42,796 bases of DNA from an uncultured Actinomycetes bacterium (GTDB taxonomy: Bacteria; Actinomycetota; Acidimicrobiia; Acidimicrobiales; RAAP-2), in the NCBI GenBank assembly GCA_903828785.1, contig CAIKNP010000013.1, positions 1 through 42,796 of the forward strand, in the 5' to 3' direction. Under the pieces are notes generated by a model. That model ran no database searches and was not told where the DNA came from. It was given only the letters and a program-made list of their open reading frames with translations. A program made the translations under genes and the position numbers. Shown here piece after piece: positions 11,311 to 42,221 of the stretch (positions within the stretch are counted from its first letter, which is position 1; each line of letters begins with the position of its first letter).

Positions 11311-11340
11311 GACGCTCCTCGCGATAAGCAGGGCGTTCAC

Positions 11341-11346
11341 TAGGCT
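11341..11346 (+). promoter_or_regulatory. -10 hexamer of leaderless serS promoter
   Basis: TAGGCT followed by 7 nt and the ATG at 11354. The same hexamer serves ctaA. No Shine-Dalgarno sequence is present. Confidence 0.45.
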
Positions 11347-11353
11347 GAAGGGC

Positions 11354-12655
11354 ATGATTGACCTAACGCAGCTACGTCGTGAGCCCGACGTGGTCAAGAC
11401 CGCCCTGGGTCGTCGGGGTGTGGCCGCAACCCTGATTGACCACGTCATCGCCCTCGACGTCGAACACCGCCGACTCCTCCAAGAAGCCGAGCGTTTGCGG
11501 GCCGAAATCAAGGATCTTTCTCGCCAAGTGGGCGACGCGCGCCGATCCAAGGACACGGACACGGCCGAGGCCCTGACGCTGCGCAGTAGGGAACTGGGCG
11601 AGAGTGAACGCCAGGCCTCCGAAGCGACCGACGAGGTGGCCTCAAATCTTCGCAACGAACTTCTTCTCCTGCCCAACCTGCCCTCGGAAGACACCCCCGA
11701 CGGGGCTGACGAAAATGACAATGTCGAGGTTCGGCGTTGGTGGGTGGGTATGGACGAAGGGGCCCCCTTTCCCACCTACGAGCCCCACCAGCGTCTGTAT
11801 CACTGGGACGTGGCCAAGGAACTCAACATCCTCGACCTCGAGGCGGGCGTCAAATTGGCCGGTTCGATGTTTCCCCTCTACCGGGGAGACGGCTCACGTC
11901 TGCTTCGGGCTTTTGGGGCCTTCGCCCTCGACCAGCACCGTGACGCCTACGAGGAGATTCGTCCCCCAAGTTTTGCGCTCACCGAAACCATGATGTCCAC
12001 CGGCCACTTGCCGAAGTCCCAGGACGACATGTACGCGATTGAGCGAGACGACCTCTGGGCCATTCCCACCGCGGAAGTCCCCCTGACCTCAATGCGGCGT
12101 GGTGAGATTCTCGATGAGGCCGAGTTGCCACTACGCATGACGGCCCAGACGGCCTGCTTCCGTCGAGAGGCCGGTTCGGCTGGACGTGACACCCGAGGTT
12201 TGCTGCGCGTGCACGAATTCGACAAGGTGGAGCTCTTCGCGTATTGCACCCCCGAACAAGCGCCGGCCGCGCACGCCGACATTCTGGCTCGCGCCGAGGC
12301 TCTCCTCCAGGCCTTCGGGCTCACTTACCGGGTGCTCGACCTCTGCGCCGGTGACCTCGGCACCTCCTCGGCTCGCACGGTGGACCTCGAAGTGTTTAGC
12401 CCCGGCGTCGACCGCTGGCTCGAGGTGTCGTCCGTCTCCTGGTTTCGGGACTTTCAAGCCAGGCGGGCCAACGTTCGCTTCCGCAGCGCGGAGGGCACGG
12501 CCTTTGTTCACACGGTGAATGGTTCAGCCCTGGCCTGGGCGCGAATCTGGGCCGCCGTGATTGAAACGAATCGCCAGGCGGACGGTTCGGTAAAAATTCC
12601 CGACTGCCTCGTTCCCTACATGGGTGGGCAGACGCACCTGGTCGCTAGGAAGTAA
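11354..12655 (+). CDS. serS: Seryl-tRNA synthetase
   Basis: 433-aa class II aminoacyl-tRNA synthetase charging tRNA-Ser (and tRNA-Sec where present). Residues about 28-100 form the long charged antiparallel coiled coil that grips the tRNA arm (LLQEAERLRAEIKDLSRQVG). The catalytic domain has TAEVPLTSM, motif 2 around FRREAGSAGRDTRGLLRVHEF, and motif 3 GSALAWARIWAAVIETN with its arginine, then the typical ending DGSVKIPDCLVPYMGG. Length is normal. It overlaps the convergent response regulator gene by 11 nt at the 3' end, leaving no room for a separate terminator. Confidence 0.97.
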   Translation: MIDLTQLRREPDVVKTALGRRGVAATLIDHVIALDVEHRRLLQEAERLRAEIKDLSRQVGDARRSKDTDTAEALTLRSRELGESERQASEATDEVASNLRNELLLLPNLPSEDTPDGADENDNVEVRRWWVGMDEGAPFPTYEPHQRLYHWDVAKELNILDLEAGVKLAGSMFPLYRGDGSRLLRAFGAFALDQHRDAYEEIRPPSFALTETMMSTGHLPKSQDDMYAIERDDLWAIPTAEVPLTSMRRGEILDEAELPLRMTAQTACFRREAGSAGRDTRGLLRVHEFDKVELFAYCTPEQAPAAHADILARAEALLQAFGLTYRVLDLCAGDLGTSSARTVDLEVFSPGVDRWLEVSSVSWFRDFQARRANVRFRSAEGTAFVHTVNGSALAWARIWAAVIETNRQADGSVKIPDCLVPYMGGQTHLVARK

Positions 12656-13361
12656 GGTCCAGGCGATATCCCACACCGCGGACGGTGGTGATGGGTGAGC
12701 TCTTGCCGTCGGCGTCTTCAATCACGCTGCGCAGGCGCTTGATGTGCACGTCGAGGGTCTTGGTATCGCCAAAGTAGTCGCTACCCCACACCCGGTCGAT
12801 TAACACCTCGCGGGTGAGCACCCGCCCGGCGTTCTCGAGGAGCAATTGGAGCAGGGCGAACTCCTTTTTGCGAAGCTTGACCTCGGTGCCGCGCACGAAA
12901 CAGCGGCGAGCATCCACCTCGAGACGGATCTCCTGGTTTTGGAGGACTTCGGCGCTGAGCGCCGGGCTCGCCCCCTCGCGACGACGCAGCACCGCTCGAA
13001 TGCGCGCTACGAGTTCACGCAGGCGATAGGGCTTGGTGACGTAGTCGTCCGCCCCGATTTCGAGCATCAGGACCATATCGATTTCTTCACCCTTGGCACT
13101 GACGATGATGATGGGCGTGTCGCTGATGAGTCGAATTGCTTGGCAGACCTCCATACCGGACTTCTTGGGGAGCATCAGGTCGAGCAGAACGACGTCGATA
13201 GTTTTGGCGTCGAAGCGATCGATGCCCTCCTGGCCGTTTCGAGCGACCACGACGTCGAATCCTTCCCGCTTGAGACCTACCTCGAGCGCGTCAATGAAGG
13301 ATTCCTCGTCCTCAACGACGAGAATGCGCGTACGCCGGTCGTCACTCGAGGATGGACTCAT
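12645..13361 (-). CDS. OmpR-family response regulator, RegX3-like
   Basis: 238-aa transcription factor. Receiver domain (about 10-125): acidic residues in VVEDEESF, phospho-acceptor aspartate in VVLLDLMLPKKSG, and the conserved lysine in YVTKPYRLREL. A winged-helix DNA-binding domain (about 140-235) follows with FALLQLLLENAGRVLTREVL and the ending TVRGVGYRLD. The receiver sequence is close to RegX3, the actinobacterial phosphate-starvation regulator, but PhoP-like functions cannot be excluded and no pst or phoU gene is in the window. Its ATG overlaps the kinase stop as ATGA, so both come from one mRNA. Confidence 0.9.
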   Translation of the reverse strand: MSPSSSDDRRTRILVVEDEESFIDALEVGLKREGFDVVVARNGQEGIDRFDAKTIDVVLLDLMLPKKSGMEVCQAIRLISDTPIIIVSAKGEEIDMVLMLEIGADDYVTKPYRLRELVARIRAVLRRREGASPALSAEVLQNQEIRLEVDARRCFVRGTEVKLRKKEFALLQLLLENAGRVLTREVLIDRVWGSDYFGDTKTLDVHIKRLRSVIEDADGKSSPITTVRGVGYRLDLTS

Positions 13362-14644
13362 GGGTTGGCGATGGGCAGTTCCATCGTGAAGATACTGCCC
13401 TCACCTTCACGAGACTCCACGAGGACCCGCCCACCGTGATTCTGCGCGACGTGGCGAACGATGCTGAGACCGAGTCCGGTTCCTCCGGTGGCTCGAGCGC
13501 GACCCGGGTCGACTCGGTAGAAACGCTCAAAGATGCGGTCCAGATCCTTGGCGGGAATACCTACCCCGTGGTCCGCCACGGTAATGCGCACCACCGGGAC
13601 GTCATTTTCCTCGCTCGCTTCGTGGCGGGTGGTGGTCACGCGCACCTGCCCACCTTCGGGCGAATAGACCACAGCGTTTTCCAGCAGGGCCTGGATGGCG
13701 GAAATGAGCTGGCGACGATCACCGTTGATGACGTAACCAATCTCGGGTTCCTCAAAGGTGATGGTCACGTAATTCTGTTCACTGGCGGTGCGAATTCGTT
13801 CCATGGCGTCGGCGACGATGAGTGACACGGGCACCGGTTCCCGGGTGGCCGAGGACTCGCCCTCGATTCGCGAGAGGTCGAGCAGGTCCTCGATAATGCG
13901 GTTGACGCGAAAGGCCTCCGCGTTGATGCGGTTGGCCAGTCGATTAGCGACGGCGGGGTCGTTCTCGTACTGCAGCGTTTCGGCCAAGAGACCCAGGGCC
14001 CCCATCGGGGTCTTTAGTTCGTGCGAAACGTTCGCGATGAAGTCGCGACGAATCTCTTCGAGACGGCGATGTTCCGATACGTCTTCGATGAAGGCGATAA
14101 CGCCCAGTGGACGTCGGCCGTCGTCGATGACGGTGGCTTGAATATTCAGCGTGCGACGTGGGGGCCCGTAGATGTCGACGGCACGGTAGGCCACACCCTT
14201 GGTCCAGCCCTCGGCCAAGGTGTCGGTGACGGCCTGGGCGGCGATGGCGTCGCCGTACCTACTGACCATAAGGCTCTCGGCCTGAGGATTGCGGTAGAGC
14301 ACGGCCCCCGCTTCGTCACAAAGCACGAGACCCAGGGGCAGGGCGTCGAGAGCTCGACGCAGGCGAATCACGTCAGCACCCGCCTCGTTCACGACGGAGG
14401 TGGCGGCCCCGGCGACTTCCTCGAGCAAGAGCAGCGCCGACTCCACGCGGCCACGGTCGTCACGGGGTTCCACCCCCATACGCGCCGCCAGCGCGGTGAG
14501 GCGTTGGGCGATGGCGCGATTTCCCCGCCAACGATTGATCACTACACCGAAGTAGGCGCCGATGATGAGGATTCCGAGAACGGCGGCGTCGGTGACGGCC
14601 GCCGACCAGTGAGCCGCGAAGTTGTGGCTGAAGACGATGTGCAC
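13358..14644 (-). CDS. Sensor histidine kinase, SenX3-like
   Basis: 428 aa from the GTG at 14644. One N-terminal membrane helix (AAVLGILIIGAYFGVVI) with almost nothing outside the membrane, then a PAS domain (about 90-200, VIRLRRALDALPLGLVLCDE to FIEDVSEH), HisKA with the phospho-accepting histidine in NVSHELKTPMGALG, and HATPase with N box ALLENAVVYS, G1 DHGVGIP, and GTGLGLSIV. The frame stays open further up, but upstream codons look non-family. At the chosen start a GAGAAT hexamer sits 6 nt before the GTG, a weaker form of the leaderless signature. The single helix and cytoplasmic PAS suggest sensing by partner proteins or inside the cell. It is divergent from the secretion-like cluster. 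Confidence 0.88.
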   Translation of the reverse strand: MHIVFSHNFAAHWSAAVTDAAVLGILIIGAYFGVVINRWRGNRAIAQRLTALAARMGVEPRDDRGRVESALLLLEEVAGAATSVVNEAGADVIRLRRALDALPLGLVLCDEAGAVLYRNPQAESLMVSRYGDAIAAQAVTDTLAEGWTKGVAYRAVDIYGPPRRTLNIQATVIDDGRRPLGVIAFIEDVSEHRRLEEIRRDFIANVSHELKTPMGALGLLAETLQYENDPAVANRLANRINAEAFRVNRIIEDLLDLSRIEGESSATREPVPVSLIVADAMERIRTASEQNYVTITFEEPEIGYVINGDRRQLISAIQALLENAVVYSPEGGQVRVTTTRHEASEENDVPVVRITVADHGVGIPAKDLDRIFERFYRVDPGRARATGGTGLGLSIVRHVAQNHGGRVLVESREGEGSIFTMELPIANP

Positions 14645-14682
14645 GCAATCATTCTCGCAGATGTTGGACAAAGTGTCGGCGA

Positions 14683-14697
14683 CCACGACCGTTGTGG
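14683..14697. promoter_or_regulatory. Imperfect palindrome between kinase and secretion-like cluster
   Basis: CCACGAC-C-GTTGTGG, two 7-nt arms with one mismatch around a single central base; the next outer pair (A14682/T14698) also matches. It lies between the divergent starts at 14644 and 14724 and could bind a dimeric regulator. No binding protein can be named. Confidence 0.3.
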
Positions 14698-14723
14698 TGC
14701 CCCTACAAGGAAAGAGAGTTCCC

Positions 14724-15008
14724 ATGCTGTACGCCGGCGTAAGCCTTAATCCATCCAGCACCGCCCTGCCGGGCGGGGCCGTTATTCAGTCACTCATCAA
14801 CGGAGTGGCCTTCTGGGCCCTCATTGCCTCGCTAGCGGCGCTGGTCATCGGCGCGGCGATGTGGGCAATCGGCAACCAGATGCAGAACATGCAGCAGTCC
14901 AGCGCTGGACGTCGAGCGGTGCTCACCTCCGTGGCGTCGGCGATTTTGCTGGGTGCGGCCCCGACCTTGATCAACTTCTTCTTCGCGACGGGCACGACCG
15001 TTAAGTAA
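14724..15008 (+). CDS. Small two-helix membrane protein, type IV secretion/conjugation-associated
   Basis: 94 aa, first gene of a five-gene type IV secretion-like run. After a short polar N terminus with LPGG it has two hydrophobic helices (about 28-48, FWALIASLAALVIGAAMWAIG; and 68-90) separated by a polar loop NQMQNMQQSSAGRR. This two-helix, polar-loop plan is that of VirB2/TrbC pilin-type subunits and of the small membrane proteins encoded ahead of TrbL-like genes in actinobacterial conjugative elements (DUF6112-like, from memory). The ATG at 14724 has GGAAAGAGAG upstream as ribosome binding site, unlike the leaderless genes. Its stop overlaps the next start by one base (TAATG). Confidence 0.7.
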   Translation: MLYAGVSLNPSSTALPGGAVIQSLINGVAFWALIASLAALVIGAAMWAIGNQMQNMQQSSAGRRAVLTSVASAILLGAAPTLINFFFATGTTVK

Positions 15009-16114
15009 TGTCTACCCTTCTCTGTTGGGTGACGCTGAATTGCGTGACCACGAGTCTGGCCAACGCCACGCTGAATGACCTCTTTAACGCCTTCGCGGGC
15101 TGGGTCCTGGCGGCGGTGCAGTGGCTGCTCACAACGGTGGGTGTGGTACTCAACGCCACGAGCGATCCCGGTACGATCGTCAACGCGGCGCAGGGGGAGT
15201 TCACGGCCCTGTTGCCGCTGGCCCCCTGGCTGCTCTTACTGGGTTTGCTCGTGGCGACCATCTCCTGTGTTCGCCACGGGGACCAGGTGGGATTGTGGCG
15301 CCTCTACCTGGGGGTGGCGCCCGTCAGCGTGGCCGCCATTTTTTTGGCCCGCCCGCTCGCCCTCGACGCCTTACGCTTGGTCGACGCCCTGTGTTCGGTG
15401 GCTTCGTCACGCAACGCTATTGACTTTTCCCAACTCGGCAACGCCCTGGTGAACGTGGGGGCCATCCCCGGTTTTGGCATCTTCGTTCTGGCCAGCCTGG
15501 TGACCTTCGCGGCGGTACTGCTATGGGCGGAGTTGCTCTTTCGTTCGGTGGCACTGTCACTCCTACTGGTACTCGTTCCGCTCATCGTTCCGCTTTCGAC
15601 CTTTCCCAGCCTTCGCCGGGTGGCGTGGCGTCTGCTCGAAAGTTTTGTCGCGCTGGCTGGTTCCAAAGTCATCGTGGTGACCACCCTGGCGCTGGGCCTC
15701 AGTGAGCTCAACGGTGACAACGCGACCTCCATTCTCATGGGCGTCGTCACCTTGTTGTTGGCCTGCGCCACGCCCTTTATCATTCTGCGACTGGTTCCGA
15801 TGATGGAACAGTCGGCCCTGCACGCGCTCGACGGATTACGGCAACGAGCGGTACGGGCCGTCATGAATAGTCCACAATCACCCGCGGGCCTCGCGGTGCA
15901 GGCCCTGTGGCCGGCGGCGGCCCCGCCCTCTCCCCCCTCTCCCCGCGAAGACCTGGGGATACCCTTCTGGGAGGGCAGCGGTGATCTGCCTCTTCCCCCG
16001 CTCGACGGCGAACTTCCCGAGGCACCGGTGGGTCTGCCGCAGGTGCGTCACGGCAAAGTGGCCTACTTCAAGGACCGCTGGGGTCCGGTCATTGGTTGGC
16101 ACTGGGATGACTGA
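15008..16114 (+). CDS. Polytopic membrane protein, TrbL/VirB6-like
   Basis: 368 aa with about seven hydrophobic segments between residues 20 and 270, including PLAPWLLLLGLLVATISC, VLASLVTFAAVLLWAELLF and SLLLVLVPLIVPLSTF, then a proline-rich cytoplasmic tail (WPAAAPPSPPSPRED) of about 100 residues. Layout and place in the cluster match TrbL/VirB6-type inner-membrane channel proteins of type IV secretion, which contact the substrate as it crosses the membrane. Sequence identity to that family is not obvious by eye, so the call rests on topology and context. It overlaps the previous gene by 1 nt and the next by 8 nt. Confidence 0.65.
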   Translation: MSTLLCWVTLNCVTTSLANATLNDLFNAFAGWVLAAVQWLLTTVGVVLNATSDPGTIVNAAQGEFTALLPLAPWLLLLGLLVATISCVRHGDQVGLWRLYLGVAPVSVAAIFLARPLALDALRLVDALCSVASSRNAIDFSQLGNALVNVGAIPGFGIFVLASLVTFAAVLLWAELLFRSVALSLLLVLVPLIVPLSTFPSLRRVAWRLLESFVALAGSKVIVVTTLALGLSELNGDNATSILMGVVTLLLACATPFIILRLVPMMEQSALHALDGLRQRAVRAVMNSPQSPAGLAVQALWPAAAPPSPPSPREDLGIPFWEGSGDLPLPPLDGELPEAPVGLPQVRHGKVAYFKDRWGPVIGWHWDD

Positions 16115-17153
16115 GCCAACGCTGCAGGCCAGTGACGCTGAACCACGCTGGGTCGGTGTGCGCCGAGAGTACGTCGTGGCCGCCCTGGTCCTGGGGGCTC
16201 TTGGTATCGACCGCGTCTTCTCGAAACACTGGAATGGGGTCCTCGTCCTGCTGGCCACGCTCGTCGGCTTGGCGGTCACCCCCCTTTCCGCTCACACGAG
16301 TATTGGCCGCGAAGTCGGGGCGCTCTTTCGTTACGCGTTGCGTTCGCGGTGGTTTGTCCTTCGCGTGAAACGCCAGGGGAGCACCCTTCGTCTGGCGCAC
16401 CGTTCGAGCGTCGATCTACGACTCTTCCGCTTTCCCCAGGTGGGGAGGCTCGACCTAGCGGGGCAAGACCACGAGCTGACCGCCTTGTTGCGCAAAGTGA
16501 GTGGCACGCTGGCTCTCGGCAGCGCGCGTAGCCACCTCGGTCAGTTTGTCGTGAGTAGTGACCAGGGGGTGTCGACTTTCCTCGCGCTGCGCGGTTCGGC
16601 GGATGTTGGCTCCCTCGTCGCAGCTGATCAGGTGCCACTGCTGCGCTGCGATGAAGGCGTTCGCGTCATTCGTGAAGGCTGGCGCAGTCTCGACTGCTTA
16701 GACGCCAGCGTCGCGGTACTTCGCGTGGCTCGCTTCGCCAACACCGGCCAGCGACCCCTGCTGGAAATTCTTCAACGAATTGGGGGCCACTCGACGCTGT
16801 GCCTCCAAGCGGCGGTGGTACCCACCCCCCAAGCGCGACGGATGACGGGTCGCGCCGTCCACCGCAGCGGCGTCGACGACGCGGCCAGGGGAGCCATGGG
16901 CTTTCGCCATTCCATCAACCAGGAAATGAACAAGCGACGTTTGCAGCGACGCGAGCAACTGGTGGTCTCGGGTGAAGCCTTGTTGCAGCTCGCCGTCTAC
17001 CTCGTCATCGAAGCGGCTTCCCAGCGCGAGTTGCGCGATCGCGTCGCGGCGGCGCTGCAACAGGCCCGCGAAGTCGGACTGACCTTGGAACGGGGCCACG
17101 GACGACAGGCACAGTGGTTTCGCTGGGCGCTCCCGGGCGGTGTGGAGTGGTGA
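16107..17153 (+). CDS. SCO6880/PrgI-like type IV secretion-associated membrane protein
   Basis: 348 aa. A short basic N terminus is followed by two close membrane helices (about 24-36 and 43-60), the PrgI/VirB3-like plan, then a charged cytoplasmic domain of about 280 residues starting RYALRSRWFVLRVKRQG. The soluble part has no ATPase motif. In actinobacterial conjugation clusters, SCO6880-type proteins combine a PrgI-like head with such a domain and sit directly before the VirB4-like ATPase, as here. It may supply the N-terminal VirB4 region that the next protein lacks; that is inference. The ATG at 16107 overlaps the preceding gene by 8 nt, and its own stop overlaps the next GTG. Confidence 0.6.
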   Translation: MTEPTLQASDAEPRWVGVRREYVVAALVLGALGIDRVFSKHWNGVLVLLATLVGLAVTPLSAHTSIGREVGALFRYALRSRWFVLRVKRQGSTLRLAHRSSVDLRLFRFPQVGRLDLAGQDHELTALLRKVSGTLALGSARSHLGQFVVSSDQGVSTFLALRGSADVGSLVAADQVPLLRCDEGVRVIREGWRSLDCLDASVAVLRVARFANTGQRPLLEILQRIGGHSTLCLQAAVVPTPQARRMTGRAVHRSGVDDAARGAMGFRHSINQEMNKRRLQRREQLVVSGEALLQLAVYLVIEAASQRELRDRVAAALQQAREVGLTLERGHGRQAQWFRWALPGGVEW

Positions 17154-18325
17154 GACCCTGGACGCACTGGGCGACCAGCGATGATTGGTGGTCACTACGT
17201 CTTCCACTACACGACGCGGGCACCGGCATTCCTGGTCGCCCCCTCGGACGAGCCTTTCGCGGTGAATCCTTCGTGTTTGACCCCTTTGACGCCTACCAAC
17301 GAGGATTAACCACGAACCCCAACATGGTGATCGCCGGCGGGATAGGGATGGGTAAGAGCACCCTGGTCAAGATGCTCATCGACCGCGCGCTGGAACGGGG
17401 TCGCCGCGTGGTGGTGGTCGACCCCAAGGGTGAGTACGGCCCTCTCGCCTCCCTCTACGGCACCACGCCCGTGGTCGTGGGTCGCGATGGCTGGTGCAAT
17501 CCCTTCGTGCAGTCGGACAATGAACACCGTGCCCTGGTACGAAGTATTCTCGCCAGCGCCCAGGGAAAGTCGTTGACCCCCGAACAGCATTTTGTACTCG
17601 ACGAGACGTGGCTGACCCTGGAGGGAAAGACCCCGCCACGGGTACTCTGGTCCCTCTTTGACGCGCTGCGCGCCACCTTGGTGGCGTCGACGTCATCGCC
17701 CGAGCGGGCGTTGGCCCTGCTACTGCGGCGTTTTATCTCGGGGGATTACGCGGGCCTCTTCGATGGGGAGGGACCACCGCTGAACTTCGGTGAGCGCTTG
17801 GTCATTTTGGACCTGTCGCAGCAGTGGGCCTCAGCGTCACTGGGCATGGCCGCGTTGAGTGCCGTTTCGGCGGCCCAACAGGTCGCACGGGGGCCCGACG
17901 AACAAGGCCACGTCATCGTCGACGAGGCCTGGGCCCTCTTAGCGGACCCCTACGCGCTGCGCTGGCTTCAGGGATCGTGGAAGCTGGCCCGCGCCCGAGG
18001 AGTGAGTCACCTCCTGGTGCTGCACCGTTGGACGGACGTCGGGGCGGTGGGTGACGAAGGGAGCGCTAACCGAGCTCGGGCGCAGGGTCTCCTGCGCGAG
18101 TGCGAGACCGTGTGGCTCTTTCGTCAGCTCAATGACGAATTAGCGGAGTTGAGCAGGGCCCTGGGACTAAGCGCGGTGGAGCAGGCGTCGCTCAGCCAGC
18201 TCAGCAAGGGTCACGTTCTCGTCCGCTACGGTAACGCTCGGTCCCTGGTGGCTCTGCAGCCCGATGATCGGGACCGCGCATTCATTGACACCGACGCCGC
18301 GATGCGGGGTAGTCGTGAGTCGTAG
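17150..18325 (+). CDS. VirB4/TraC-like ATPase
   Basis: 391-aa P-loop ATPase that would power assembly or transport in the type IV secretion-like apparatus. After a tryptophan-rich start it has PNMVIAGGIGMGKSTLVKML (Walker A about residues 62-69), the conserved VVVVDPKGEYGPLA, and Walker B HVIVDEAWALLAD (about 254-262) followed by the VirB4-type segment ARGVSHLLVLHRWTD. Full VirB4 proteins are about 800 aa; the N-terminal domain is missing here and may be provided by the preceding gene product. GTG at 17150 overlaps the previous stop (GTGA); it overlaps the following gene by 11 nt. Confidence 0.87.
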   Translation: MRPWTHWATSDDWWSLRLPLHDAGTGIPGRPLGRAFRGESFVFDPFDAYQRGLTTNPNMVIAGGIGMGKSTLVKMLIDRALERGRRVVVVDPKGEYGPLASLYGTTPVVVGRDGWCNPFVQSDNEHRALVRSILASAQGKSLTPEQHFVLDETWLTLEGKTPPRVLWSLFDALRATLVASTSSPERALALLLRRFISGDYAGLFDGEGPPLNFGERLVILDLSQQWASASLGMAALSAVSAAQQVARGPDEQGHVIVDEAWALLADPYALRWLQGSWKLARARGVSHLLVLHRWTDVGAVGDEGSANRARAQGLLRECETVWLFRQLNDELAELSRALGLSAVEQASLSQLSKGHVLVRYGNARSLVALQPDDRDRAFIDTDAAMRGSRES

Positions 18326-19472
18326 TCAGCCGGTACTGGGTCGCTGGGCGTGGGGCGGCGTGGGCCTGGGAATGGTGAAGCGGCTGCCCCAGGGACACTC
18401 GATGCTGGTGGTGGGCCCCACGCAGGCGGGCAAAACCACTTCCCTGGTTCTCCCCGCGGTATTGGGGTGGCCTGGTCCCGTGGTCATGACCAGCGTCAAA
18501 CACGACGTGGTGCAAACGTCAATTTCCTGGCGTCAATCGCTGGGTTTGGTGCAGCGACTCGATCCGGGCTCGTCGAGCGGCATGACCTGGAATCCTTTAG
18601 AGGGCGTGGTGGGCATTCGCCACGCGCTGCGGGTGGCGCACTCACTCACGCTGGCGTCCTCGCGAAGTGATGGTGATTTCTGGAACGCGCTGGCGGTCAA
18701 GCTGGTGGGTGGCGTCATGGCGGTTGCCCTGGAAACGGGTCGCTCCATGTTTGACGTGGCGCAAGCTATTGAGGAGCGGACCTGGCTGAGCTGGGACGAC
18801 GAGTCGCCGGCGACCGACTCGCTGCGCTCCTTTCGTTCCTACGACCTCAGGACGCTCGACGGCGTCTCCACGACGGCCGAAGCGATGGTCTTGCCTTGGC
18901 GCTTTGTGCAACCCGTGGCGCGCATTCGCGACACCGTGGCGGGAGCCAACACGCTGTACTTGTGCAGCCCCCGCTACGAGCAGGCCAGTTACGAGCCACT
19001 CTTCCGTGGCGCCCTGCGAATGCTGCTCGAGGAACAGCAGTTGCGCGTGGACGCCGGTACCGACCACGCCCTGTTGATGGTTCTCGACGAGGCCGCCAAC
19101 GTGGCGTCACTGGACGAATTGGACCAGATGGCGGCCACCGTGTCCGGTCTGAACGTGACCCTCGTAAGCGTGGTGCAAGACTTCGCGCAACTGCAGGCCC
19201 GCTGGGGTAAACGAGCGGCCACCATCGTCAACAATCACGCGACTCGAGTAGTACTCAGTGGTCTGGCCGATCCCGCCATCGCCACCTTTCTCCCCGAGTT
19301 GAGTACACCCCGCGCCAAGGACCGTCCCTTGATCCCCCTGCGGCGTCGCGCCGCCGGGACGGCGATGGTGGTGTCGGGTCGCCGGCCGATCTACGCGGTG
19401 CGATTGCGCCCCTGGTGGCGGTCTCGACGGCTCCGCCGACGAGGACGAATGCCCCCATTGACTACGCTTTAA
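18315..19472 (+). CDS. VirD4/TraG-like coupling ATPase
   Basis: 385-aa type IV coupling protein. Walker A GPTQAGKTTSLVLP lies at residues 34-47, followed by the family's VVMTSVKHDVV, a near match to the VirD4 'T(S)xKxD' strand, then WNPLEGV, and Walker B LLMVLDEAANV (about 252-262) with the downstream LVSVVQDFAQLQARWG and NNHATRVVLSG that mark TraG/VirD4 proteins. These hexameric ATPases deliver DNA or protein substrate to the channel. The usual N-terminal membrane anchor is absent, so it may be soluble or recruited by its partners. The GTG at 18315 lies inside the previous gene. No relaxase or origin of transfer was recognised nearby. Confidence 0.88.
   Translation: MSRSQPVLGRWAWGGVGLGMVKRLPQGHSMLVVGPTQAGKTTSLVLPAVLGWPGPVVMTSVKHDVVQTSISWRQSLGLVQRLDPGSSSGMTWNPLEGVVGIRHALRVAHSLTLASSRSDGDFWNALAVKLVGGVMAVALETGRSMFDVAQAIEERTWLSWDDESPATDSLRSFRSYDLRTLDGVSTTAEAMVLPWRFVQPVARIRDTVAGANTLYLCSPRYEQASYEPLFRGALRMLLEEQQLRVDAGTDHALLMVLDEAANVASLDELDQMAATVSGLNVTLVSVVQDFAQLQARWGKRAATIVNNHATRVVLSGLADPAIATFLPELSTPRAKDRPLIPLRRRAAGTAMVVSGRRPIYAVRLRPWWRSRRLRRRGRMPPLTTL
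19463..19468 (+). promoter_or_regulatory. -10 hexamer of leaderless promoter, second ROK gene
   Basis: TACGCT within the last codons of the VirD4-like gene, exactly 6 nt before the GTG at 19475. It supports that GTG over the ATG at 19415, and gives the ROK gene transcription independent of the secretion cluster. Confidence 0.5.
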
Positions 19473-19474
19473 GG

Positions 19475-20224
19475 GTGACTCCGACCCCCGACGACGCTTT
19501 CGTCCTGGCCATTGACATTGGCGCTTCCAGCATCAAGATGGCCGACGTCACCGAGCGGGGCACGATCAAGGGTTCAGTGCGCCGTCGCGTCACGCCCTAC
19601 CCCTGCACGCCGGATCGGCTGGTCACTTTGTTGGCGGCGCGTATTGCGAAGCGTGGTATTCCTCGTGTCGGAGTGGGCTTTCCTGGTGAGTTTCGCGACG
19701 GGGTGGTCATTGCCCCGGGCAATCTGGCCCGCCCGCAGGGCTTCGACTCAGAGGTGGACCCCGATCTCGACGCCCAGTGGCGCGGATTCCCTCTGCAGCA
19801 GGCGCTCAACGAGAGGGTCGACGCCGAGGTCCGCGTGGTGAACGACGCGTCACTGGCGGCCCGGGGGAGCGCCCGGGGCGAGGGACGCGAACTGGTCTTG
19901 ACCCTGGGGACGGGCTTTGGCGTGGCCCTTGTGGTCGACGGGGTCCTGGCCACGATTCCCGACTACGGCCAGTTGACGTTCTTTGACGATGAGTCCTACG
20001 ACGCCAAACTCGGCGAACATGGTCGCGCCGCCGACCCCGACGCCTGGCTGGCCGCCCTGCGCCGCGTCCTCGTCGAACTGTCCGCGCAATGGGATTCGAG
20101 CATCATTCACCTGGGTGGCGGTAACTCGCAGCGCCTGAGCGTTGACGAGGTCGCCACCGAGGGACTCACCCTGATTATTCAGGGTAACGCCGCCCCCCTT
20201 CGCGGAGCAGCCAAGCTCTTTTAG
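19475..20224 (+). CDS. Divergent ROK-family kinase-like protein (polyphosphate glucokinase paralogue)
   Basis: 249 aa, related to the ROK kinase at 1953-2765. It keeps the phosphate motif AIDIGASSIKMADV, GVGFPGEF, the catalytic-type VVNDASLAARG, TLGTGFGVALV and HLGGGNSQ. The segment that in the paralogue reads HLEIAHH is replaced by YGQLTFFDDES, so the glutamate/histidine region expected to contact the sugar is changed. Activity on glucose is therefore doubtful; another sugar or a regulatory role is possible. The start is placed at GTG 19475, two bases after the coupling-protein stop, on the basis of the leaderless hexamer; an ATG at 19415 would give 20 more residues that do not look conserved. 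Confidence 0.8.
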   Translation: MTPTPDDAFVLAIDIGASSIKMADVTERGTIKGSVRRRVTPYPCTPDRLVTLLAARIAKRGIPRVGVGFPGEFRDGVVIAPGNLARPQGFDSEVDPDLDAQWRGFPLQQALNERVDAEVRVVNDASLAARGSARGEGRELVLTLGTGFGVALVVDGVLATIPDYGQLTFFDDESYDAKLGEHGRAADPDAWLAALRRVLVELSAQWDSSIIHLGGGNSQRLSVDEVATEGLTLIIQGNAAPLRGAAKLF

Positions 20225-40608: not shown

Positions 40609-40749
40609 GTGGCTTACACCGCGCGAACGAAGAACGGTTTTGCGCCCAAGATTTGTGCTCGATGCCTTCGCCCCTTCGAGTGGCGTAAGAAGTGGGCCAA
40701 GGAGTGGGAGCACGTGAAGTACTGCTCCGAGGCCTGTCGCCGCTCGTGA
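40609..40749 (+). CDS. DUF2256 small zinc-ribbon-like protein
   Basis: 46-aa protein starting MAYTARTKNGF. It has the DUF2256 pattern: CxxC in KICARCLRPF, the conserved EWRKKWAKEWEHVKY, and CxxxC in YCSEACRRS. The four cysteines probably bind zinc. DUF2256 is known to occur next to, or fused with, cryptochrome/photolyase-related proteins, and here it overlaps the photolyase start by 4 nt (GTGA), so the two are made together. It could help DNA binding or cluster insertion; its molecular role is not established. Start set by a leaderless hexamer. Confidence 0.88.
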   Translation: MAYTARTKNGFAPKICARCLRPFEWRKKWAKEWEHVKYCSEACRRS

Positions 40750-42221
40750 CCCGCTCGCTTCGCTACGTCGCCTTTGATCAACTGCACCGTGACTACGGCG
40801 TTCTCGCCGACGCCAGGCCCGCAGAGGACGTCATCGTGATGGTCGAAAGCTCCGCCATGCTGCGGGGACGCGACTGGCACCCCGAGCGACTCTTCTTTTA
40901 CCGCTCGAGTGCCCGCCACTTTGCGCAGTCCCTCGTCGCTAGCGGATTTCGGGTGGAGTTCCTCAAGGCCGCGTCCTCGCGAGCGGGACTGCTCGAAGTA
41001 AAGGCCCGCTACCCCGGCGTCACGCTCGTCGTAGCTGAACAGTCCTCATTTCGGCAACGGGCTCGGTTGGCCGACCTCGCCGACGAAACCCTGCCCAATG
41101 ACTTTTTCCTCACCCCTAGTGAGGTGTTCCAGTCATGGGCGAACTCGCACGCCACGCACGTCATGGAACACTTTTATCGACAGCAGCGAGTGCGGCTGGG
41201 TGTACTAATGGAGGGGGGCAGCCCCCTCGGCGGCGCCTGGAATTTCGATCACGACAACCGCCTGCCTCCCCCGAAGAACTACCAATGGCCCGAGCCCTTG
41301 CAATTTGCGCTCGACGAAATTGACGAAGCCGTAGCCGAGGAGGTGGCGTACCGGCCCTCGGGGGCGTGGTCCACGACGAGAGCGGGGGCCCTGGCTCAGT
41401 TGGAGAACTTCCTCACGCAGCATTTCGCCGCCTTCGGTCCCTACGAAGACGCCATGGCCTCGACGAGCTGGTCGATGCACCACTCACTGCTCAGTCCCTA
41501 CTTGAACAATGGACTCCTGCACCCGCGCGAGGTCCTCGATGCCGTGCTCGAGCGTTTCTCCCGTGGAGACATTCCTATCGCCTCAGCCGAAGGATTCGTT
41601 CGACAGTTGATTGGATGGCGAGAGTACGTCCACGGCATGTACTGGTTTCAGGGGCCGCAGTACCAAGAAGGCAATGGCTTGGCCGCTACGACGCCCCTGC
41701 TGCCCCTCTTTGACGACGCCACGGCCACCAGCATGAACTGCGTCGGGTCTATCATTCGCGATATCGATGCACGAGCGTGGACGCACCACATTCCTCGACT
41801 CATGGTGCTCAGCAATCTGGCCCTGCTCGCGGGTGTCGACCCCCAGGCCTTTCTGGCGTGGATGCGTCGGCGCTTCATTGACGCGGCCGAGTGGGTCATG
41901 GTGCCCAACGTCATTGGCATGGGCCTGCACGCCGATGGCGGCGCCATGATGACCAAGCCCTACGCGGCGGGTGGGGCTTACATCCACCGCATGGGTTCCT
42001 ACTGCAAGGATTGTCCCTACAACCCCAAACTCCGCATTGGCGAAAGTGCCTGTCCCTTCACCACGCTCTACTGGGATTTTCTGGACCGACACCGAGCAAC
42101 CTTCGCGACCAATCACCGTATGGCGCAACAGGTTCACGGACTTGGTCGTCTAGCGGACCTTCCCCAAGTGCGCCAAAGAGCGCAGGTGGTTCTGCGCGGA
42201 CTCGCCGAGGGGCGCATCTAA
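40746..42221 (+). CDS. Iron-sulfur bacterial cryptochrome/(6-4) photolyase (PhrB/FeS-BCP type)
   Basis: 491-aa photolyase-related flavoprotein that repairs UV (6-4) photoproducts with light in characterised members. The N-terminal half is the Rossmann-type antenna domain (RSLRYVAFDQLHRDYGVL), the C-terminal half the FAD domain (GWREYVHGMYW, HHIPRLMVLSNLALLAG, WVMVPNVIGMG). The four cluster cysteines C332, C420, C423 and C436 have spacings 88, 3 and 13, identical to those of Agrobacterium PhrB (Cys350, 438, 441, 454), so a 4Fe-4S cluster is expected. GTG at 40746 overlaps the DUF2256 stop; an ATG at 40692 lies inside that gene and is rejected. Confidence 0.95.
   Translation: MTRSLRYVAFDQLHRDYGVLADARPAEDVIVMVESSAMLRGRDWHPERLFFYRSSARHFAQSLVASGFRVEFLKAASSRAGLLEVKARYPGVTLVVAEQSSFRQRARLADLADETLPNDFFLTPSEVFQSWANSHATHVMEHFYRQQRVRLGVLMEGGSPLGGAWNFDHDNRLPPPKNYQWPEPLQFALDEIDEAVAEEVAYRPSGAWSTTRAGALAQLENFLTQHFAAFGPYEDAMASTSWSMHHSLLSPYLNNGLLHPREVLDAVLERFSRGDIPIASAEGFVRQLIGWREYVHGMYWFQGPQYQEGNGLAATTPLLPLFDDATATSMNCVGSIIRDIDARAWTHHIPRLMVLSNLALLAGVDPQAFLAWMRRRFIDAAEWVMVPNVIGMGLHADGGAMMTKPYAAGGAYIHRMGSYCKDCPYNPKLRIGESACPFTTLYWDFLDRHRATFATNHRMAQQVHGLGRLADLPQVRQRAQVVLRGLAEGRI

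Follow-up and report, generated by a model that had tools for sequence, protein, structure and literature searches.

What is a set of conjugation-type genes doing in a housekeeping region of a bacterial chromosome? Five overlapping genes at positions 14,724 to 19,472 of the window, a 42,796-nucleotide stretch of contig CAIKNP010000013.1 from an uncultured actinomycete of the Acidimicrobiales, resemble parts of a type IV secretion system (T4SS), and a first-pass annotation read them as a relaxase-free, possibly domesticated conjugation machine for protein or DNA transfer. Conjugation genes normally belong to plasmids and integrative conjugative elements (ICEs). We propose, with a probability of about 0.58, that this cluster, here called locus A, and a second site in the same genome, locus B, together make up a single conjugation machine, fixed in the chromosome and inherited vertically, that is predicted to export chromosomal single-stranded DNA. 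The genome measures 1.56 Mb (96.5% complete, 28 contigs), and the window is its contig C13. Below, G denotes a genome, L a locus or stretch and f a family; the genus labels g1, g26 and g27 are separate from the gene names g1 to g3.

The absence of a relaxase proved true of the window but false of the genome. No relaxase, integrase, recombinase, transposase or other mobile-gene family matched in the scanned open reading frames (ORFs) of the window (six proteins at E values up to 1, three at 0.01 and 30 further ORFs at 1e-5; no separate search for attachment (att) sites was made), and the 30 further ORFs belong to ordinary families, apart from five of them without any match. A TrwC search of the whole genome, however, hit only a contig other than that of the window, and a second VirD4-like match in the genome led to locus B, at L067:9549-12325. 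This locus contains a small TrwC/MOBF relaxase ORF of about 355 aa (TrwC E 1e-23; E 8e-6 to 3e-5 against TraI and TrwC in the PDB; no helicase family match) and, convergent with it, a second VirD4-like protein of 443 aa, D4b. A relaxase-free system is thereby ruled out, and the earlier choice between protein and DNA transfer narrows toward DNA because a MOBF relaxase is present in the genome. In characterised systems relaxases and VirD4-type coupling proteins belong to DNA export.

Locus B is constant in the genus: PF08751 matches in 37 of 37 genomes, the order PafBC-like gene, relaxase, D4b recurs in all of them and in 7/7 further ones, and cofC was recovered next to it in 28 of the 37, several of the other contigs ending earlier. 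The N-terminal tyrosine of the relaxase and the four histidines of TH...PHLHDH are present in 37/37 genomes (36/37 by a stricter residue pattern, since L136 reads HEH); the catalytic residues are intact and the enzyme may be active. As judged from sequence, the conjugative parts at hand are a relaxase with its catalytic tyrosine and histidines and two VirD4-type proteins, VirD4 of locus A and D4b, the latter with one match in each of the 12 genomes queried. The PafBC-like neighbour (best PDB match PafBC 6sj9, E 8e-15) ends 27-40 bp from the aligned relaxase start in 36 loci and 169 bp from it in L126, and in L067:10832-13943 the relaxase stands directly 3' of this fused regulator; the two genes likely share one transcript. 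PafBC is an activator of the mycobacterial DNA-damage response.

Locus A, too, occupies a fixed site. VirB4 was matched in 33 of the 37 genus genomes; two of the four misses (G001 and G004) have g1 and g2 at contig ends, in G027 the contig stops inside serS, and the G026 assembly holds no serS beyond a 3e-4 match. As far as contigs extend, 27 genus loci share one gene order, with the exceptions of L042 and L054, which are without VirD4, and L058, which has no g3 hit; L041, L052 and L057 have an extra kilobase between two neighbouring genes. The locus was also found in seven more genomes of the genus, one of them (L316) without VirD4. The GTDB survey covered the best 80 of 145 matches, many of them from the same genomes as the genus set and the rest of unstated kinship: 56 loci have the full order serS, response regulator, histidine kinase, g1, g2, g3, VirB4, VirD4, ROK, while seven are without VirD4 (L190 begins inside g2), in two no g3 was detected and 15 are truncated where their contigs end. 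Since VirB4 is present in 33/37 genus genomes and the order is kept in the 80 best GTDB loci, the cluster is conserved far more than by chance, and the synteny survey proposed at first pass gave conserved presence with one empty site. In the seven VirD4-less loci among the 80, VirB4 is still present and so is the ROK gene downstream, and each of the seven genomes with a VirD4-less locus A has exactly one D4b-homologue match. The closest GTDB relatives are annotated as Acidimicrobiaceae, Acidimicrobiales, Actinomycetes or uncultured actinobacteria, many with bog or permafrost isolate names; a few are labelled otherwise (L174 as Saccharibacteria; L199, L204, L206, L224 and L228 as Acidobacteria). 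Some genus members hold additional, mobile-looking VirB4 loci (L068, L069, L070), and strong TrwC hits in G008, G012, G015, G028 and G034 represent canonical MOBF relaxases besides the fixed loci.

The two loci are co-inherited. Protein distances of the relaxase correlate with those of VirB4 (r 0.87, 28 genomes), and VirB4 distances correlate with those of serS (r 0.69, 25 genomes), 0 of 999 permutations being as high in either case; the correlation of g1 with serS is only 0.15 (179/999 permutations as high), probably owing to long N-terminal extensions on some g1 ORFs. The median ratio of nonsynonymous to synonymous substitution rates (dN/dS) is 0.25 for g1, 0.36 for g2, 0.52 for g3, 0.28 for VirB4, 0.26 for VirD4, 0.32 for the relaxase, 0.20 for D4b and 0.17 for serS, values that come from non-independent pairs with dS < 1.5 (34-70% of all pairs), with single pairs reaching 0.93 and overlapping frames blurring some estimates. 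Selection on the genes of both loci is purifying.

What would locus A build? Its five genes, all on the plus strand, are real ORFs of the families first assigned to them, and with the likely starts neighbours overlap by 1-11 bases. The first, g1 (14724..15008, 94 aa), encodes a DUF6112 small membrane subunit (Pfam PF19607, 32 bits against a cut-off of 25) with hydrophobic stretches at 19-50 and 65-83, a median identity of 62% to 26 genus copies and a weak match to T4SS_pilin (E 0.084, below cut-off); its role would be VirB2- or pilin-like. It is followed by g2 (15008..16114, 368 aa), a polytopic membrane protein resembling TrbL/VirB6 and SCO6881 (E 0.0076 against TrbL and, for the f61 homologue, E 1e-5 against SCO6881_fam, both below cut-off) with eight hydrophobic stretches in a simple hydropathy scan. 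The third gene, g3 (16107..17153, 348 aa), is SCO6880/PrgI-like (NCBIfam SCO6880_fam E 3e-7 over the C-terminus, below cut-off; f61 homologue E 3.5e-30, above cut-off) and most likely starts at ATG 16107, not with the opening codon of its 390-aa ORF. The predicted structure of g2 is poor (predicted local distance difference test, pLDDT, 67). The AlphaFold model of g3 (pLDDT 87.5) has as its 14 top PDB matches in Foldseek R388 inner-membrane-complex or TrwK/VirB4 chains (7o41 E 1.9e-7) at modest TM-scores of 0.41-0.51 by query length, the 15th match being the ESX-3 translocon.

The fourth gene is the VirB4-like ATPase (ORF 17114..18325, likely start GTG 17150; AAA_10 E 4.5e-9; profile match to the VirB4-like PDB entry 4ag5, E 1e-21), whose Walker A is kept in 27/27 genus copies. 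The first-pass annotation found it short of the usual N-terminal domain, which holds for the ATPase gene alone, the domain being supplied by g3. Because g3 resembles VirB4 complexes, and because g3 and VirB4 run head to tail in a single reading frame in 10 of the 80 GTDB loci (L193, L197, L198, L201-L203, L205, L208, L214, L221), VirB4 is split across the two genes, not truncated, and a VirB4 truly without this domain is ruled out. The g3 protein would comprise N-terminal helices, possibly VirB3-like, and the VirB4 N-terminal domain. The single-frame loci represent a natural experiment for a split VirB4. The fifth gene encodes the VirD4/TraG-like coupling protein (ORF 18264..19472, likely start GTG 18315; T4SS-DNA_transf E 2.3e-23, TraG-D_C E 2.2e-14), with an intact Walker A. 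The hydropathy scan found no hydrophobic helix in VirB4 or VirD4, in agreement with the early claim of a VirD4 without its membrane anchor, whereas the f61 VirD4 homologue still has hydrophobic N-terminal stretches. No VirB8-like or cell-wall hydrolase gene was found among the five genes, the only ones examined for them. The locus appears to encode a minimal monoderm (MPF-FATA-like) T4SS channel.

The flanks are as first described, by Pfam matches and synteny. The landmark of the site is serS (11354..12655, plus strand; Seryl_tRNA_N and tRNA-synt_2b), followed on the minus strand by a response regulator (12645..13361; Response_reg/Trans_reg_C) and by a histidine kinase ORF (13358..14761; HisKA/HATPase_c; true start inside the ORF) divergent from g1. 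The downstream neighbour in the genus is a ROK-family gene (19415..20224, plus strand; Pfam ROK E 8e-10), which had no match beside VirD4 in the other-family stretches examined. The window also holds a heliorhodopsin gene (1058-1921, Pfam E 6e-92) and a photolyase-related protein (40692-42221).

How far does the arrangement reach beyond the genus? VirB4 matched in 65 of 148 genomes, and 20 loci were picked from the stronger of these matches (E no higher than about 4e-79), lower-scoring families being under-sampled. Sixteen of the 20 have the kinase, three are contigs of 3.6-4.3 kb, and in one (L340, f16) a relaxase takes the kinase's place. In all, 12 families (f1, f61, f21, f31, f9, f50, f47, f28, f38, f39, f49, f43) have locus A no more than 2 kb from a matching histidine kinase, with two such loci each in f61 and f21 and, in f1, loci in the genera g1 and g26 and in one of two g27 genomes; for the other g27 genome (G263/L303), the 7.1 kb of upstream sequence contains neither kinase nor serS. 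In eight of the 12 families (f1, f61, f50, f47, f28, f38, f39, f43) serS is in the same stretch, and in L331 (f28) the kinase and g1 are separated by a further gene hit. Other copies (L059, L061-L066, L071, L312) have no kinase or serS in the stretch examined, and mobile-looking loci also occur in the same taxonomic order. In the VirB4 tree the fixed copies group mostly by family: the label changes four times, whereas shuffled labels give 15.1 changes on average and none of 500 shuffles went so low; 7 of the 59 rows were unlabelled, and L303 was labelled fixed despite its upstream stretch. The fixed site in the genus, the 12 kinase-linked families, the purifying selection and the distances that track neighbouring core genes give good support to the first-pass idea of a domesticated conjugation machine.

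Locus B is likewise widespread. Linkage of relaxase and PafBC was scored from coordinates (relaxase no more than 5 kb downstream, same strand) in 50 genomes, 38 of which have both hits, and it was found in 27 of these 38, from 15 families; the unlinked ones are G140, G079, G057, G114, G117, G138, G108, G088, G127, G149 and G038. Each of the 12 families with a fixed locus A has at least one genome with this linkage, though not always the one that carries the fixed locus A, and the linkage is present in 11 of the 16 genomes with a kinase-linked locus A. In f16 two loci (L340, L071) have the relaxase directly beside a related T4SS cluster, next to g1. There it occupies the place of the histidine kinase of other families, which may reflect a mobile or an ancestral arrangement.

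If DNA is exchanged by these bacteria, by what route does it enter a cell? ComEC is the usual, widespread DNA-uptake channel. A ComEC (PF03772) query of 37 genomes gave no match in 23 genus genomes (G000-G022) and in one f9 genome, and found ComEC in 13/13 genomes of 13 other families; 10 of 14 controls were positive. Eight of the 13 ComEC-positive genomes have no VirB4 match at 1e-30 and three have VirB4 only at other sites (L063-L066), the remaining two (G040, G043) not having been examined for the fixed locus.

We propose the following scheme. Locus A would build the minimal monoderm channel, and locus B would supply the MOBF relaxase and a second coupling protein. The relaxase would nick the chromosome at a putative origin and stay bound to the 5' end, and the VirD4-like proteins would hand the complex of relaxase and DNA over to the channel made of split VirB4, TrbL and DUF6112. 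Chromosomal single-stranded DNA would then be exported to neighbouring cells and recombined there, a process that may replace ComEC-type transformation, and expression may be linked to DNA damage via the adjacent PafBC-like gene. The relaxase is favoured as the strongest pointer to DNA as the substrate, and export is favoured because the relaxase is fixed in the genus, D4b is kept where VirD4 is lost, the two gene sets are adjacent in f16 and ComEC was not found in the genus genomes queried. We are more tentative, giving somewhat less than an even chance, about the wider form of this proposal, in which a core two-locus machine wired to PafBC transfers chromosomal DNA throughout the clade and has replaced ComEC.

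Could the cluster instead be a decaying or dormant ICE? Similar gene order occurs on five actinobacterial plasmids (DUF6112, type IV secretion protein, SCO6880, ATPase, TraM-domain coupling protein), and such gene sets, together with the mobile-looking loci found in the same taxonomic order, would suit that explanation. Unlike the loci described here, the plasmids and ICEs are mobile, and a C40, CHAP or M23 peptidase gene adjoins the cluster in three of the five; the plasmid VirB4 relatives (54 records) are all below 60% identity, and at most 42% among the 20 matches listed, and phage relatives are limited to one partial match. MOBF relaxases are well represented in Actinobacteria (PMC3218068). 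Against decay, which would show itself as a neighbouring relaxase with integration boundaries or as poor conservation, no relaxase lies beside the cluster in the genus, conservation is high and gene order in relatives continues unchanged into serS/ABC/cta genes; the site is one across the genus and kinase-linked in 12 families, no integrase family was hit in the window (att sites were not searched), the Walker A motifs of VirB4 and VirD4 are intact and dN/dS is below 1. A decaying element is thus very improbable overall, and for the genus it is ruled out by the fixed loci A and B, the GTDB synteny and the dN/dS values. A machine with a function of its own might, alternatively, be a membrane DNA motor acting within one cell in segregation, septation or differentiation, its relaxase recruited for topology or repair. 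Streptomyces cmdABCDEF (SCO4126-4131) resembles locus A, by description only, in being chromosomal and in having a VirB4-like ATPase and SCO6880/SCO6881 relatives; in S. coelicolor cmdB/C/D resemble SCO6878/SCO6880/SCO6881, the genes occur in three Streptomyces species, and their deletion causes segregation and sporulation defects with transfer of an SLP2-derived plasmid unchanged (PMC2782261). Core-like vertical inheritance of locus A would fit such a motor. The available text on cmd, which acts in sporulation and segregation, mentions no relaxase (PMC2782261), however, whereas locus B keeps one in 37/37 genus genomes, and locus A is absent in one lineage; we consider a motor of this kind unlikely.

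Another alternative is a role in import, in which a Ced- or ComB-like uptake system would replace ComEC in the recipient and the relaxase would act on incoming or damaged DNA. The failure to find ComEC in 23/23 genus genomes and the PafBC-like neighbour of the relaxase would agree with this, as would the archaeal Ced/Ted systems, which are, like the present one, domesticated and chromosomal (VirB4, VirB6 and VirB2 homologues) and move cellular DNA, Ced importing it and being induced by DNA damage (PMC9905601). These are archaeal systems with no known relaxase (PMC9905601), while here there are a MOBF relaxase and two VirD4-like proteins. The relaxase in the genome and the ranking of family models do not fit the Ced/Ted class: window protein P0004 scores best in NCBIfam against VirB4/TraC models of bacterial type and reaches CedD at no better than E 0.012, and for its f61 homologue CedB (E 7e-6) stands behind VirB4/TraC. 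Throughout the genus the relaxase and the VirD4-type coupling proteins are retained, and in characterised systems such parts mark export, which makes import rather unlikely. Many domesticated T4SSs secrete proteins, and it is conceivable that the channel and the VirD4 clustered with it deliver effectors to other cells, locus B being an unrelated relic. Patescibacteria keep a chromosomal, widespread MPF-FATA-related T4SS with VirB4, PrgI/VirB3, VirB6 and VirB2-like parts, and in Saccharimonadia its genes are reportedly essential to growth as epibionts, but it is mostly without a relaxase (PMC12102498), while the genus studied here has one throughout. VirD4, moreover, is lost in seven of the 80 best loci where the channel stays and D4b remains, no window gene beyond ROK stands beside the cluster in genus loci (effectors as such were not looked for), and within the genus locus B shows the same constancy as locus A; protein secretion is therefore quite improbable. 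Further parallels to export are single-stranded DNA secretion by the gonococcal genetic island and Hfr-type transfer, in which a relaxase and a T4SS export chromosomal DNA, although the former is an island of one bacterium and the DNA it releases is taken up by natural competence (PMC12857230), whereas the genus here is without detected ComEC.

Several observations weigh against export by a two-locus machine. Relaxase-PafBC linkage is missing in five of the 16 genomes with a kinase-linked locus A; G113 (85% complete) has no relaxase hit at all, relaxase and PafBC are 11.7 kb apart in G140, the PafBC hit of G079 lies at a contig end that cuts the linkage off, and no hit to PafBC was obtained in G095 or G164. 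In f61, D4b was not found in the three stretches examined. The membrane anchor is absent in both VirD4 and D4b, and locus A has no cell-wall hydrolase, whereas a peptidase adjoins the cluster in three of the five plasmid relatives. G019 has two serS regions of 78% DNA identity, one of which is without locus A, its kinase and ROK genes being about 100 bp apart; this clean empty site is L238 (G019 contig C8, about 11318-11419), and since the same bin also holds a contig with locus A genes, either at least one lineage can do without locus A or the bin is mixed. A single VirB4 clade for the fixed loci was rejected, at least two of the four label changes being forced by starred branches, and because the fixed copies do not form one clade against the mobile ones, several captures of locus A, or escapes to mobile elements, are possible. 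The ComEC contrast amounts to one or two changes in evolution and should not be counted as 36 independent cases.

Where might an export machine begin? The gap between cofC and D4b (L067:9102-9548) contains a small minus-strand ORF rich in Lys, Ala and Pro (histone-tail-like) in 28/28 loci and, upstream of D4b, an inverted repeat of about 63 bp, present in the 28 loci of the model and in 11 more; L296 reaches the gap yet scores only 16.3 bits, and no repeat was found in the gap of g26, g27, f61 and f21 loci. In its own genome the repeat scores 72.6 bits and the next best site 14.1, with scores computed for 150 of the 782 candidates from a first look. Covariation of its pairs is strong: double changes fill 48 cells, whereas shuffling gives 14.9 on average and reached 48 in none of 500 rounds. 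The fold is -27.9 kcal/mol with 24 pairs on the minus strand (39 rows) and -4.9 on the plus strand (28 rows). The repeat is perhaps a minus-strand RNA, such as a leader of the small ORF, or a one-strand DNA hairpin such as an origin of transfer (oriT); the oriT assignment is doubtful, weakened by the far better fold of the minus strand, and the minus-strand behaviour, which may be that of an RNA leader, is a further point against the export scheme. Rfam gave no match on one scan and only sub-threshold matches on another, for the window and locus B.

No account of a T4SS or relaxase encoded on the chromosome of these bacteria came up among the matches listed in open-licence PMC text. What stands out is a T4SS and an intact-looking relaxase at two fixed core-genome sites in many families, in a clade whose tested genus has no detectable ComEC. 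If the clade-wide proposal is true, this conjugation would give the archaeal Ced/Ted systems a first counterpart in bacteria that is driven by a relaxase, and environmental actinobacteria may swap their own chromosomes through a permanent chromosomal gene set. The question whether conjugation can belong to bacteria themselves, as a cellular, sex-like process, thereby becomes directly testable in cultured relatives.

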